Shown here: one piece after another, positions 48,723-52,747 of the stretch
How positions within the stretch are numbered: position 1 is the stretch's first letter
Layout: every line of letters begins with the position of its first letter
DNA from: Paucibacter sp. KCTC 42545
Lineage (GTDB): Bacteria > Pseudomonadota > Gammaproteobacteria > Burkholderiales > Burkholderiaceae_C
Assembly: GCF_001477625.1 (NCBI RefSeq)
Contig: NZ_CP013692.1
Coordinates: forward strand, 4,774,001 to 4,838,000
Length of the DNA: 64,000 nucleotides
Reading direction: 5' to 3'
Made by a program: the position numbers and the translations under genes
The notes under the pieces: model-generated
The model's input: the letters and a program-made list of their open reading frames with translations, nothing else
Databases searched by the model: none
What the model was told of the DNA's origin: nothing

Positions 48723-49610
48723 ATGAAGTGGGAAGGTCAGCGCGAGAGCGAGAACGTCCAGGATTTGCGGGGCAGCAGTGGTGGCGGCGGCGGCGGGGGC
48801 GGTGGCTTTGGTGGTGGCCGCGGCATCGGATTGGGCGGCATCGTCATCGCTTTGCTGGCCTCCTGGGCCTTTGGCATTAATCCCATGACGGTTCTGGGCT
48901 TGCTCAATGGCGGCGGCGCGCCGCAGTCCGCGCCCGCAGTCCAACATGCGCCTGGGGCCAAGCCGCAAGATGTCGGCGCGCGCTTTGTCAGCGTAGTGCT
49001 GGCCGACACCGAAGATGTGTGGGGCAGCTATTTCGCCGCTCAACAGCAGCAGTACGCGCCGCCCAAATTGGGCTTGTTTCGCGGCAGCTACAAGACCGCC
49101 TGCGGCATGGGTGAGTCGGCCATGGGCCCGTTTTACTGCCCGGCCGATCGCACGGTCTATATCGATCTGGCGTTCTACGACACCTTGCGCTCCCGTTTGG
49201 GCGCGCCGGGCGACTTCGCCCAAGCCTATGTGATTGCTCACGAAGTTGGTCACCACTTACAAAATTTGCAAGGCACGACCGAAAAACTGGATCGCGCCCG
49301 CCAGCGAGTTTCCGAGCGTGACTACAACGCATTGAGCGTTCGCCTGGAGTTGCAGGCGGATTGCTATGCCGGTGTTTGGGCCAAGCTCTCGCAGCAAAGC
49401 AAGGGCTGGTTGGAGCAGGGCGACATTGAGGAAGCGCTCAATGCCGCCGCCCAAATTGGCGATGACAAATTGCAGCGCCAGGCGCAAGGCCGGGTCGTGC
49501 CCGAAAGCTTCACCCACGGCAGCAGCGAGCAGCGCGTGCGCTGGTTCAAGACCGGCTTGGCGGCGGGTGAGCTGAAGGCTTGCAACACCCTTGGCGCCGG
49601 TGCTGTTTGA
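48723..49610 (+). CDS. YpfJ-family neutral zinc metallopeptidase
   Basis: 295 residues. [17 protein letters not shown], then a Gly-rich stretch with nine consecutive Gly, one membrane helix ([14 protein letters not shown]), and an extracytoplasmic protease domain. The zinc site HEVGH is at about residues 173-177 ([15 protein letters not shown]), with a downstream Glu/Asp region [13 protein letters not shown] as third ligand. The family is widespread (KPN_02809/YpfJ) but its substrates are unknown. Anchored in the inner membrane, probably facing the periplasm. Confidence 0.93.
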
Positions 49611-49799: not shown

Positions 49800-50405
49800 A
49801 TGAACCAGCATCAACAACAGCCGCTAGATTCAGGCCAAGAGCCCGCCATGCCCCAAGTCGCAGCCACAGCTGCGTCTCGCCTGGAAGCTCGTCGGCGCCT
49901 GCTCAAGGGTGGTCTGGCGCTGGCGCCTGTGGCCATGACCGTGACCAGCCGGCCAGTGCTGGGCGCTAATCTCGAATGCCATGGCCCGACGGGTTTTCAG
50001 TCGGCCAATGTCAGCCGGGCTGTGGGTAAGACGGTTGATGCGGCCTGCGGCACGCGCAAACGCCCGGCGGACTGGGCGGTCGCGGGAACTCCTTACCCAA
50101 CAGGCTTCACCTCCGGAACGGTGTTCGCCACCTATTTCCCGAACAGTGGTTTCACCACCGGCACAACGTTCGGCGGCGTTCTGACGATGGCGGTAGGCGG
50201 TTCAGTGCGCATTCAAATCGCCCAATTGGTGGTCGCGGCGATTCTGAATTCGGTCACCACAACCGTGCCTTCGCGGGCGCAGATCATTGCGCTTTGGAAT
50301 GGTCACGTGAACAAGAACTACAGCCCCTCTGGTGAATCGCCTTGGGATGATGCCAAGATCATCAAGTACCTGAACTACACCATGGGTGTGGTCGTCAGCT
50401 TCTGA
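49800..50405 (+). CDS. Secreted protein with Tat-like signal, putative substrate of the downstream HPr-rel-A-type system
   Basis: 201 residues; AGGGAG precedes ATG 49800. A 30-residue Gln/Ala-rich extension is followed by RRRLLKGGLALAPVAMTV, a twin-arginine-like signal, and cleavage near VLGANL. The mature part has two Cys (LECHGPTG and DAACGTRK), is Gly/Thr/Ser-rich in the middle (FTSGTVFATYFPNSGFTTGT) and ends in hydrophobic VVVSF. I recognise no domain. The next three genes (PqqD-like, HprK-like, nucleotidyltransferase) follow on the same strand with overlaps between them, so this protein, with its long pre-signal extension, is the obvious candidate for the modified or carried substrate; this is inference. 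Confidence 0.7.
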   Translation: MNQHQQQPLDSGQEPAMPQVAATAASRLEARRRLLKGGLALAPVAMTVTSRPVLGANLECHGPTGFQSANVSRAVGKTVDAACGTRKRPADWAVAGTPYPTGFTSGTVFATYFPNSGFTTGTTFGGVLTMAVGGSVRIQIAQLVVAAILNSVTTTVPSRAQIIALWNGHVNKNYSPSGESPWDDAKIIKYLNYTMGVVVSF

Positions 50406-50433
50406 TTTCAAGCGACGAAGTTCAGGGTCGGGC

Positions 50434-50727
50434 GTGCCGGGGGCACAAATACACCAATGGCGGGTGCTGAATTCGGCATCCTTGCACATGCGCCTGCTTG
50501 ATGAGCAGCAGCTGGTGTTCAATGAGCTGACGGGCGACACCCATTTGCTCTCCTTCAGCGGCCAGGAATTGCTGAGCGTTCTGGCTCAATCCTCCCCCCA
50601 AGCCTGGACCAGCGCGGCCTTGAGCCAGGCGCTGCTGGGGGAAAGTGATGCTGCGCTGGAGGCGCGCATCACGCAAAACCTGAACTACCTCGAGCAGCTT
50701 GGCTTGATCGAGCAATCGCCCTCGTGA
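50434..50727 (+). CDS. PqqD-like peptide-binding protein of an HPr-rel-A-type cluster
   Basis: 97 residues from GTG 50434 (start uncertain; a TTG near the end of the first 20 codons is an alternative). HMRLLDEQQLVFNELTGDTHLLSFSGQELLSVL and the tail NLNYLEQLGLIEQSPS are the winged-helix-like PqqD fold: strand-turn-strand 'D-x-x-x-x-x-L-x-G-x-T-x-x-L', then helices. PqqD domains bind leader peptides of ribosomal peptides for modifying enzymes. The stop overlaps the next gene (GTGA). PqqD homologues next to HprK-like kinases are known as the HPr-rel-A group, whose chemistry has not been described as far as I know. Confidence 0.8.
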   Translation: MPGAQIHQWRVLNSASLHMRLLDEQQLVFNELTGDTHLLSFSGQELLSVLAQSSPQAWTSAALSQALLGESDAALEARITQNLNYLEQLGLIEQSPS

Positions 50728-51647
50728 GACTGGCGCAACTGCAGGCTGCGGCCCTGAGATCAGCCCTGCGCGGCGAGGGCTTGTTGATTCGCACCGGCCC
50801 GGTGCTGGTGCGCATCCGCTCCCAGCTCGACAGCGTGGCCGACGCGCTGGCCACGCTCTATGCCGATCAAACCCTGGGCACGGCCGAGGAATTTTGCGAT
50901 TTCGACACCCGCATTGACGCGGTGGACGGCCTGCGCCACTGGTTGCGGCCACAGGCGCAGTTCTCGTTTGAAGGCATTCGGCCCTTCAAGCCCATGGCCT
51001 TGCCGCATGCCTCGGCCATGCTGGAATGGGGCTTGAACTGGTGTGTGTCCGGGCACTGCCACCAATACATCATCATTCACGCAGCGGTGGTCGAGCGCGG
51101 TGGCCGCGCCATGGTGCTGCCGGCGCCGCCTGGCTCGGGCAAGAGCACTTTGTGCGCCGGGCTGGTGAATCGAGGCTGGCGTTTGCTGTCGGATGAGCTG
51201 ACCTTGATCGACCCGCAAACCGGCGAGCTGGTGCCGCTGGCCCGACCCGTTAGCTTGAAGAACCGTTCCATCGAGGTCATCAAGGCCTTTGCGCCGCAGG
51301 CCGTGTTCGGCCCGCTGACGCGGGACACGGTCAAGGGCACGGTCGCGCATATGAAGCCGCCGGCCGACAGCGTCTTGCGCAATACCGAGCGCGCCCGGCT
51401 GGCCTGGGTGGTGTTCCCGCGCTATGTGGCTGGCAGCCCGGTGACGCCCAAGCCTTTGCCCCGCGCCGAGGCCATGATGGCCCTGGTGGACAACGCCTTC
51501 AATTACCACTTGCATGGCCGCCAGGGCTTTGAGACCTTGGTGGACCGCGTGGCCGCCTCGCATTGCCTGCGCTTTGAGTACTGCGATCTGGAGCAGGCCT
51601 GCCAATTCTTCACCCAGCTGGCGGATGCTGCGGAGGTGTCGCCATGA
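50724..51647 (+). CDS. HprK-related kinase (HPr-rel-A type)
   Basis: 307 residues from GTG 50724. The P-loop APPGSGKST (about residues 134-142) follows IIIHAAVVERGGRAMVLP, and LLSDELTLIDPQTGEL supplies the acidic motif of HPr kinase/phosphorylase. The C-terminal half (VFPRYVAGSPVTPKPLPRAEAMMAL) matches HprK-like proteins; the N-terminal 100 residues are specific to this group. Classical HprK phosphorylates Ser46 of HPr; no HPr or PTS gene is near, so a different protein or peptide substrate is likely. Overlaps the PqqD-like gene by GTGA and the nucleotidyltransferase gene by ATGA. Confidence 0.85.
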   Translation: MRLAQLQAAALRSALRGEGLLIRTGPVLVRIRSQLDSVADALATLYADQTLGTAEEFCDFDTRIDAVDGLRHWLRPQAQFSFEGIRPFKPMALPHASAMLEWGLNWCVSGHCHQYIIIHAAVVERGGRAMVLPAPPGSGKSTLCAGLVNRGWRLLSDELTLIDPQTGELVPLARPVSLKNRSIEVIKAFAPQAVFGPLTRDTVKGTVAHMKPPADSVLRNTERARLAWVVFPRYVAGSPVTPKPLPRAEAMMALVDNAFNYHLHGRQGFETLVDRVAASHCLRFEYCDLEQACQFFTQLADAAEVSP

Positions 51648-52747
51648 GCCTAGGCACGAGCTTGCTGGTGCAAGCCCTGGCGCGTCCACAAGACTGCCTG
51701 AGCTGGACGCTGCGCCAATGGGAGTTGCTGCTGCAGCAAGGCCGGCGCGCCAATCTGCTGGGCCGCTTGGAGGTTGCCTTTGAGCGCGCCGGTGTGCTGG
51801 CCCAGTTGCCGCCCGGCCCGCAAAAGCATTTCGATTCGGTGCGCCGCGTGGCCGACAGCCAGCGCCGTGCCGTGCGCTGGGAGGCCCGCAAGATCGCGCA
51901 GGCCTTGCAAGATCTCAAAATGCCGGTGGTGGTGCTCAAGGGCGCGGCCTATGCGTTGAGCGAACTGCCGCTGGCGCAGGGGCGTTTGTTCTCGGATGTG
52001 GACATTCTGGTGCCGCGGGACCGCCTGCCCGGTGTCGAGGCATCCTTGATGGCCGAAGGCTGGCAGACCGGTCACCATGATGCCTACGACCAGCGCTACT
52101 ACCGGGAATGGATGCACGAGATCCCGCCGCTGCAGCATGTGCAGCGCGAGACGGTGATCGATGTGCACCACAACATCTTGCCGCTGAGTGGGCGCATTCA
52201 GGTCGATGCGGCCAAGCTCTTGGCGAATGCCCAGCCGATTGCCGCTTGGCCGGGGCTGTACCGCCTGGCCGATGTGGACATGGTCTTGCATAGCGCCTGC
52301 CATCTTTTCCTCGACGGCGAGTTCGACAAGGGCTTGCGTGACCTGCTGGATCTGGACGGCCTGCTGCGCCACTTTGGCAGCGAACCCGCCTTCTGGCCCG
52401 CACTCAGCGCGCGCGCTTTTGAACTGGGCCTGGCCCGGGTGCTGTTCTACGCCCTGCGCTACACCGGCCTGGTGCTGCACACGCCCATGCCCGAGATCAG
52501 CGCGGCCTTGCGCCAGGCCGGCCCGTCGACTGGCGTGTTGAAGCTGATGGACGCGGTTTTCCTGCGTGCCCTGCAGCCCGATCACCCCAGCTGCGAGGAC
52601 GCCTGGACCGGCAGCGCGCGGCGCTTTTTGTACCTGCGCGCGCATTGGATGCGCATGCCCTTGGGGCTGCTGCTGCCGCATCTGCTGCGCAAGGCGCTGC
52701 GGCGCGAGCCCGAAGACGAGGCGACGCCGGCGGCACCGGCCGCCTAA
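51644..52747 (+). CDS. Nucleotidyltransferase family protein (NTP_transf_5 type)
   Basis: 367 residues. VVVLKGAAYALSELPLAQGRLFSDVDILVPRDRLPGVE gives the GR-x-x-S-D-x-D-x-L metal-binding core of the polymerase-beta-like superfamily, followed by VIDVHHNILP and LADVDMVLHSACHLF. Members of this family transfer a nucleotide to an unknown acceptor and often sit in clusters with HprK-like and PqqD-like genes or capsule genes. The start overlaps the kinase stop (ATGA), so it belongs to the same translationally coupled unit. Confidence 0.85.
   Translation: MSLGTSLLVQALARPQDCLSWTLRQWELLLQQGRRANLLGRLEVAFERAGVLAQLPPGPQKHFDSVRRVADSQRRAVRWEARKIAQALQDLKMPVVVLKGAAYALSELPLAQGRLFSDVDILVPRDRLPGVEASLMAEGWQTGHHDAYDQRYYREWMHEIPPLQHVQRETVIDVHHNILPLSGRIQVDAAKLLANAQPIAAWPGLYRLADVDMVLHSACHLFLDGEFDKGLRDLLDLDGLLRHFGSEPAFWPALSARAFELGLARVLFYALRYTGLVLHTPMPEISAALRQAGPSTGVLKLMDAVFLRALQPDHPSCEDAWTGSARRFLYLRAHWMRMPLGLLLPHLLRKALRREPEDEATPAAPAA

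Follow-up and report, generated by a model that had tools for sequence, protein, structure and literature searches.

A window of 64,000 nucleotides from Paucibacter sp. KCTC 42545 (contig NZ_CP013692.1, positions 4,774,001 to 4,838,000; "the window" denotes this whole stretch) contains four open reading frames (ORFs) forming a single unit at 49800-52747, in which a gene for an exported protein bearing a twin-arginine translocation (Tat) signal is followed by genes encoding a PqqD-like protein, an HprK-like kinase, and a nucleotidyltransferase homologue (Table 1). An earlier note, made from the letters of this DNA, described the cluster and proposed that the exported protein is recognized by the others through an N-terminal extension and modified before it leaves the cell, an interpretation that, as a whole, is partly supported by the analyses described here. 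The coordinates and overlaps reported in that note are confirmed: the kinase start overlaps the PqqD stop as GTGA, and the transferase start overlaps the kinase end as ATGA. The PqqD-like gene does have an in-frame GTG at 50434, where its start had been placed, but GTG 50386 and ATG 50488 are also candidate starts of the frame ending at the stop codon 50725-50727.

The assignment of the last three genes to the HPr-rel-A system also holds. Specifically, the PqqD-like protein scores 41.7 bits against TIGR04353 (cut-off 35), the HprK-like protein scores 388.6 bits against TIGR04352 (cut-off 200), and the product of the adjacent gene scores 184.8 bits against PF14907 (cut-off 31.2), in a gene order identical to that of HPr-rel-A; the exported fourth component of the window unit is without an NCBIfam or Pfam model. 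In the literature searched, HPr-rel-A has no described product, and neither "HPr-rel-A" nor "HprK-related kinase" is mentioned there, in agreement with the earlier statement that the chemistry and product of the system are undescribed.

Table 1. Coordinates of the genes and motifs of the unit, as positions in the window
Feature	Position	Strand	Remarks
Tat-signal exported protein, putative substrate	49800..50405	+	201 aa, ATG start, no family model
Twin-arginine signal, residues 31-55 (RRRLLKGG..SRPVLG)	49890..49964	+	Conserved R31 and R32, identity gradient; proposed also as leader
Motif T64-G-F-Q-S68	49989..50003	+	Ser68 codon 50001-50003, proposed phosphate acceptor; S68 kept 154/157
PqqD-like peptide-binding protein (RiPP recognition element, RRE)	50434..50727	+	TIGR04353; start uncertain (50386, 50434 or 50488)
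HprK-related kinase A	50724..51647	+	TIGR04352, GTG start
Kinase P-loop PAPPGSGKST	51120..51149	+	G137, G139, K140, S141, T142 invariant 20/20
Kinase acidic pair D157-E158	51192..51197	+	Invariant 20/20; paired with LIADD in the alignment to HPr kinase 1jb1
NTP_transf_5 nucleotidyltransferase homologue	51644..52747	+	PF14907, E 2.8e-54
Transferase catalytic core GRLFSDVD (R114, D118, D120)	51980..52003	+	Invariant 20/20
Transferase third Asp, D173	52160-52162	+	Invariant 20/20

A constant exported partner

The exported protein is a near-constant partner of the trio. A database search yielded 25 relatives, 23 of which were used to build a profile (A1); two of its members, P0009 and P0014, come from genomes that were themselves searched (compare G144:C31 and G180:C1). 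Among 200 genomes sampled from the family, 49 encode a kinase over the TIGR04352 cut-off, and the 35 genomes matched by A1 all fall within these 49; 40 of the 41 matches adjoin the kinase gene, the odd one being G052:C63. At 51 further over-cut-off family loci, a transferase gene and an A1-matched ORF are present in 51/51, with 44 matches at E<=1e-3 and the other seven (L072, L075, L091, L100, L102, L112, and L113) accepted by place and signal. The named loci are the 80 top-scoring ones among 341 relatives and are not independent of the family loci, since L125 and L201, at least, appear in both (as G107:C25 and G052:C22). They contain the substrate in 79 cases, the weakest at E 5e-15, and a profile of the signal picks out no other ORF passing E 1e-3 among the 8325 in these loci. 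The named exception, L134, lacks the PqqD gene as well as the substrate. Variations in arrangement include a substrate gene located after the transferase gene (L081, L083) and a single substrate gene lying between two trios (L191). Tandem pairs of diverged substrate genes precede one trio in L077, L092, and L201, the latter two probably representing the same contig.

A similar association is found across the phylum, where 61 of 398 sampled genomes encode a kinase over the same cut-off. A second substrate profile (A2) has a kinase-adjacent match in 36 of the 61, and individual reading of the remaining 25 revealed, in 18 of them, an ORF with a Tat signal neighbouring the PqqD gene. These 18 ORFs have different, shorter mature parts and weak profile scores (reaching E 0.06), and were counted on the basis of their location and a Tat-like signal, in L306 partly by visual inspection; in L305, 456 bases separate the ORF from the PqqD gene. 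In total, a Tat-signal protein is encoded beside the kinase in 54 of the 61 genomes and elsewhere in the genome in 6, while a contig end cuts the remaining one. Since the substrate is constant beside the trio, the regular occurrence of the trio without it, named in the earlier note as an outcome that would count against its interpretation, is not observed. The converse outcome, occurrence of the protein family away from the trio, is found in part: in two of the genomes examined, the mature domain forms part of larger proteins, with neither a twin-arginine signal nor the trio (L315:3812-6094 and L316:4487-5386). In all, A2 gives 55 matches, of which 14 are non-adjacent; 8 of these are in genomes with the kinase and 6 in genomes without it. 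The latter 6 comprise L315 and L316, L328-L330, which look unrelated, and L331, where a transferase-like gene lies nearby. In L313, L314, and L331, HprK-like or transferase-like genes scoring below cut-off accompany small twin-arginine proteins and possibly represent a related, distinct system.

Substrate and PqqD genes stand together without a kinase or transferase gene in L320, L322, L323, L324, and L326, and the genomes of four of these five loci (G322, G267, G461, and G220) have a kinase locus without substrate and PqqD, which suggests that the unit is composed of two modules, substrate with PqqD and kinase with transferase. In L301:4962-7088 the latter two are encoded as one uninterrupted 708-codon frame; in the distant loci L292, L296, and L298 an adjacent transferase gene was not seen. 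The ability of kinase and transferase to be separate from substrate and PqqD, along with the tie to polysaccharide loci described below, would fit a scheme in which the two enzymes act elsewhere, for example on a polysaccharide carrier or sugar, and the exported protein is merely a co-regulated member of the unit. We regard this as unlikely, given that the exported protein is nearly always present, that its Ser68 is conserved, and that PqqD-like proteins bind peptides (PMC7470986).

Conserved residues of the substrate and its enzymes

Consistent with the earlier placement of the 201-residue protein outside known families, no Pfam or NCBIfam entry matches it at E<=0.1, and none matches its 54 aligned relatives at E<=0.01. 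An alignment of 157 substrates (54 family, 80 named, and 23 database sequences) bears out the twin-arginine-like signal recognized previously, with R31 present in 156 and R32 in all 157, and reveals a feature missing from the earlier note, a single near-invariant serine: Ser68 is found in 154/157, as is S or T at position 64. Other kept residues are C60 (152), S72 (126), L149 (149), and N150 (140). Of the three substrates without Ser68, two (L108 and L112) end in the motif that typifies the short substrates, and the third, L187, is apparently misaligned. The short substrates display a C-terminal [ST]-C-x-x-S in 28/28 (one pair identical), as do all 120 listed out of 3580 sphingomonad-type relatives; the common pattern [ST]-small-hydrophobic-x-S, which is short and was recognized post hoc, fits 107 of the 157 long ones. 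Related substrates have a Ser in a like motif ([ST]-small-x-x-S), near the mature start in one family and at the C-terminus in others (SCWxSF, TCFASL).

Mean pairwise identity varies markedly by region, at 0.12 in the extension, 0.41 in the signal, 0.34 in the Ser68 segment, and 0.21-0.23 in the mature part. The opposite order is seen in the Tat control family MsrP, in which identity is lower in the signal (0.60) than in the mature part (0.78), a comparison made with this single family of 29 sequences whose signals were cut by script. The 30-residue extension ahead of the signal does exist, but it is variable, and the earlier proposal that recognition occurs through it is not supported; what is conserved is the signal and the segment that follows. 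Conservation of the signal, the most conserved region of the substrate, raises the alternative of an export gate, whereby the kinase phosphorylates Thr47 or Ser50 of the signal, the PqqD-like protein serves as a Tat proofreading chaperone, and the mature protein goes unmodified. Of the 157 substrates, 109 have T at position 47 and 124 have S at position 50, and the signal Thr is kept in 28/28 short substrates. Both residues are nevertheless less constant than Ser68, and the gate leaves the role of the transferase unexplained, making this alternative improbable.

The mature part, of ~146 residues, is predicted with confidence to contain a folded domain (residues ~87-195, mostly with a predicted local distance difference test score, pLDDT, >90). 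Tat transports folded proteins, and TatC is encoded in the genome of the window.

The intact P-loop, acidic motif, and GR..D.D core noted previously consist of residues that are invariant or nearly so in 20-member alignments. In the kinase, the P-loop, the acidic pair, LKN, and other residues are invariant in 20/20, and in the transferase the same is true of R114, D118, D120, and D173. The kinase resembles HPr kinase PDB 1jb1 (E 4e-4 over 61 positions) and has in common with HPr kinase/phosphorylase (HprK) the P-loop and the acidic pair, yet its score of 17.3 bits with TIGR00679 is far below the cut-off of 240, placing it outside that family. The best PDB entries for a profile of the PqqD-like protein are TfuB1 (E 1.5e-4) and TbiB1 (9e-4), both B1 proteins of lasso peptide systems, and PF05402 matches 8 of 33 PqqD-like members.

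Distribution and regulation alongside XrtA

A second feature missing from the earlier note is a tie to the XrtA/PEP-CTERM exopolysaccharide system. In the 200 family genomes used for the substrate search, with XrtA called by TIGR03109 over cut-off, 51 encode XrtA, 49 HPr-rel-A, 46 both, and 146 neither (Fisher 8e-36, relatedness ignored); by genus (n=141) the respective counts are 35, 34, and 32 for both. HPr-rel-A occurs without XrtA in G040, G067, and G186, and XrtA without HPr-rel-A in G004, G043, G078, G142, and G183, while none of the 40 family genomes with sub-cut-off exosortases alone contains HPr-rel-A. The genome of the window encodes XrtA at G000:C1:1994457-1995227 (348 bits). HPr-rel-A and the XrtA system, which is under PrsK/PrsR regulation, have a near-identical distribution in the family and also common neighbourhoods: XrtA/exopolysaccharide markers named by NCBIfam were found in the fetched flanks of 46/80 named, 10/51 family, and 2/25 further loci, and PrsR/PrsK neighbours, identified by BLAST to one example each, may include other regulators. 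Taken together, these data make it very probable that HPr-rel-A in this clade belongs to the XrtA programme. The association is weaker across the phylum sample, with XrtA in 35 genomes, HPr-rel-A in 61, and both in 25, and with HPr-rel-A in 7 of 45 genomes that have only sub-cut-off exosortases. Malonomonas, to our knowledge, falls outside the classic proteobacterial classes.

Regulatory sequences provide a further link. A 17-nt motif, TGTCG......TTTACA, is located upstream of 43 of 131 substrate genes; the corresponding counts are 0 within genes, 1 for the opposite strand, and 0.05 for shuffled sequences. A sigma-54-like site (score >=18) follows 33 of these boxes, and sites scoring >=19 are present in 41 of 113 substrate upstream regions as opposed to 3.2% in shuffles. 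Haft and colleagues described just this combination, a motif 1 ending in TTTACA and a sigma-54 site, upstream of 99 out of 167 PEP-CTERM genes of proteobacteria (PMC1569441); the spacer averages 79 here (25-100 searched) vs 63 in that study. Their 2006 description does not list the present unit, its text containing "HPr" and "PqqD" 0 times. Since 55 of these same substrate upstream regions served to define the pattern, which is therefore post hoc for them, the independent check is a search of the window's own 5.17-Mb genome. This search returned 2 matches, both before ORFs with a PEP-CTERM tail; the evidence is restricted to the position of these matches because a reversed control pattern gave 5 vs 2. 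The two boxes, at G000:C1:1906224 and 2006283 (L338, L339), are the sole exact PEP-CTERM boxes in that genome.

The box and the XrtA link suggest matrix functions and, along with the confidently predicted fold of the mature part, disfavour the proposal that the unit yields a signal molecule or antimicrobial for secretion, with a RiPP-like modification (RiPP, ribosomally synthesized and post-translationally modified peptide) rather than a matrix protein. The RRE-type partner, the highly variable mature part (identity 0.21-0.23), and the tandem substrate copies (L077, L092) are in its favour; we consider it the most doubtful of the alternatives. The substrate also differs from the PEP-CTERM proteins themselves, having an N-terminal Tat signal and a C-terminus (...YTMGVVVSF) with no PEP sorting tail. 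Flocs of Zoogloea and Aquincola require PEP-CTERM proteins and exopolysaccharide (PMC7662799, PMC9850573), and the HPr-rel-A unit is unmentioned in the available parts of these reports.

A proposed route of modification before export

The reading that we favour, and consider reasonably probable, is that the quartet serves as a dedicated pre-export tailoring unit within the XrtA/PEP-CTERM exopolysaccharide programme. The substrate would be synthesized with its twin-arginine signal and bound in the cytoplasm by the PqqD-like protein, most likely at the conserved signal region. It would then be handed to the HprK-like kinase for phosphorylation of Ser68, ~13 residues into the mature part, after which the NTP_transf_5 protein may cap the phosphate with a sugar or nucleotide. 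The finished protein would be exported by Tat and, outside the cell, presumably work with the XrtA-linked polysaccharide in matrix or floc formation. The data show the gene unit, the partnership, the conserved residues, the genomic tie to XrtA, and the regulatory box in relatives; binding, phosphorylation, capping, export, and a role in the matrix are inferred. A more specific and more tentative version holds that the Tat signal acts as a RiPP-type leader read by the PqqD-like protein, that kinase and transferase place a sugar-phosphate on a Ser of a folded protein, and that the resulting exported phosphoglycoprotein links or organizes XrtA-dependent exopolysaccharide.

The chemistry suggested here is modelled on lasso peptide tailoring, as in paeninodin (PadeK) and pseudomycoidin (PsmK/PsmN), with which the unit has in common a B1/PqqD-type RRE, an HPr kinase homologue, and a nucleotidyltransferase homologue. 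According to reviews, lasso precursors are phosphorylated on their C-terminal Ser by homologues of HPr kinase, and the phosphate then receives one or two hexoses from PsmN, possibly after nucleotidylation (PMC8498205, PMC9266682). By this analogy, phosphorylation followed by glycosylation is our best guess for the order of events in the window unit. Several differences exist. While a lasso is a short threaded peptide, the window substrate is a folded protein with a Tat signal; while the lasso Ser is the C-terminal residue of a short precursor, the candidate Ser lies near the mature start of a protein that ends in Ser-Phe. Similarly, the unit has an RRE gene beside a precursor gene, as do RRE-dependent RiPP systems, but lacks a short core peptide.

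Several observations weigh against this reading. The modification itself is putative. The quartet of the window is 2.8 Mb away from xrtA, the PEP-CTERM box was searched for and not found upstream of the window's own substrate gene, and 88 of the 131 upstream regions lack it. In the phylum sample, 36 of the 61 HPr-rel-A genomes are without XrtA over cut-off, many of them falling in families with short, Magnetococcales-type substrates (most systems of this type lack XrtA), and 10 of the 35 XrtA genomes are without HPr-rel-A; the distant substrates lack the Ser68 segment. Co-variation also fails to support a contact between signal and PqqD-like protein, which do not co-vary beyond their partners (partial 0.035, reached in 111/500 permutations). 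The signal does co-vary with the transferase, which the model did not predict (partial 0.37, 0/500 permutations), and the kinase co-varies with the Ser68 segment (0.24) no more than with the remainder of the mature part (0.26).

Were the proposal true, RiPP-style leader recognition would extend to the modification of proteins that fold and leave the cell through Tat, and a modified protein made without exosortase sorting would be a component of the XrtA matrix. As the quartet is found in the family almost only with the XrtA biofilm-polysaccharide system, the purpose of HPr-rel-A becomes testable, and a constant exported partner, one near-invariant Ser, and an XrtA-like distribution and regulation make the system experimentally approachable.

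A final difference from lasso tailoring concerns the surroundings of the unit, next to which no lasso protease or cyclase is encoded. Its neighbours are a gene for a YpfJ-type zinc metallopeptidase (NF050010; window 48723-49610), on the same strand and directly upstream of the substrate gene, and a PssA-like gene downstream of the quartet, from 52806.

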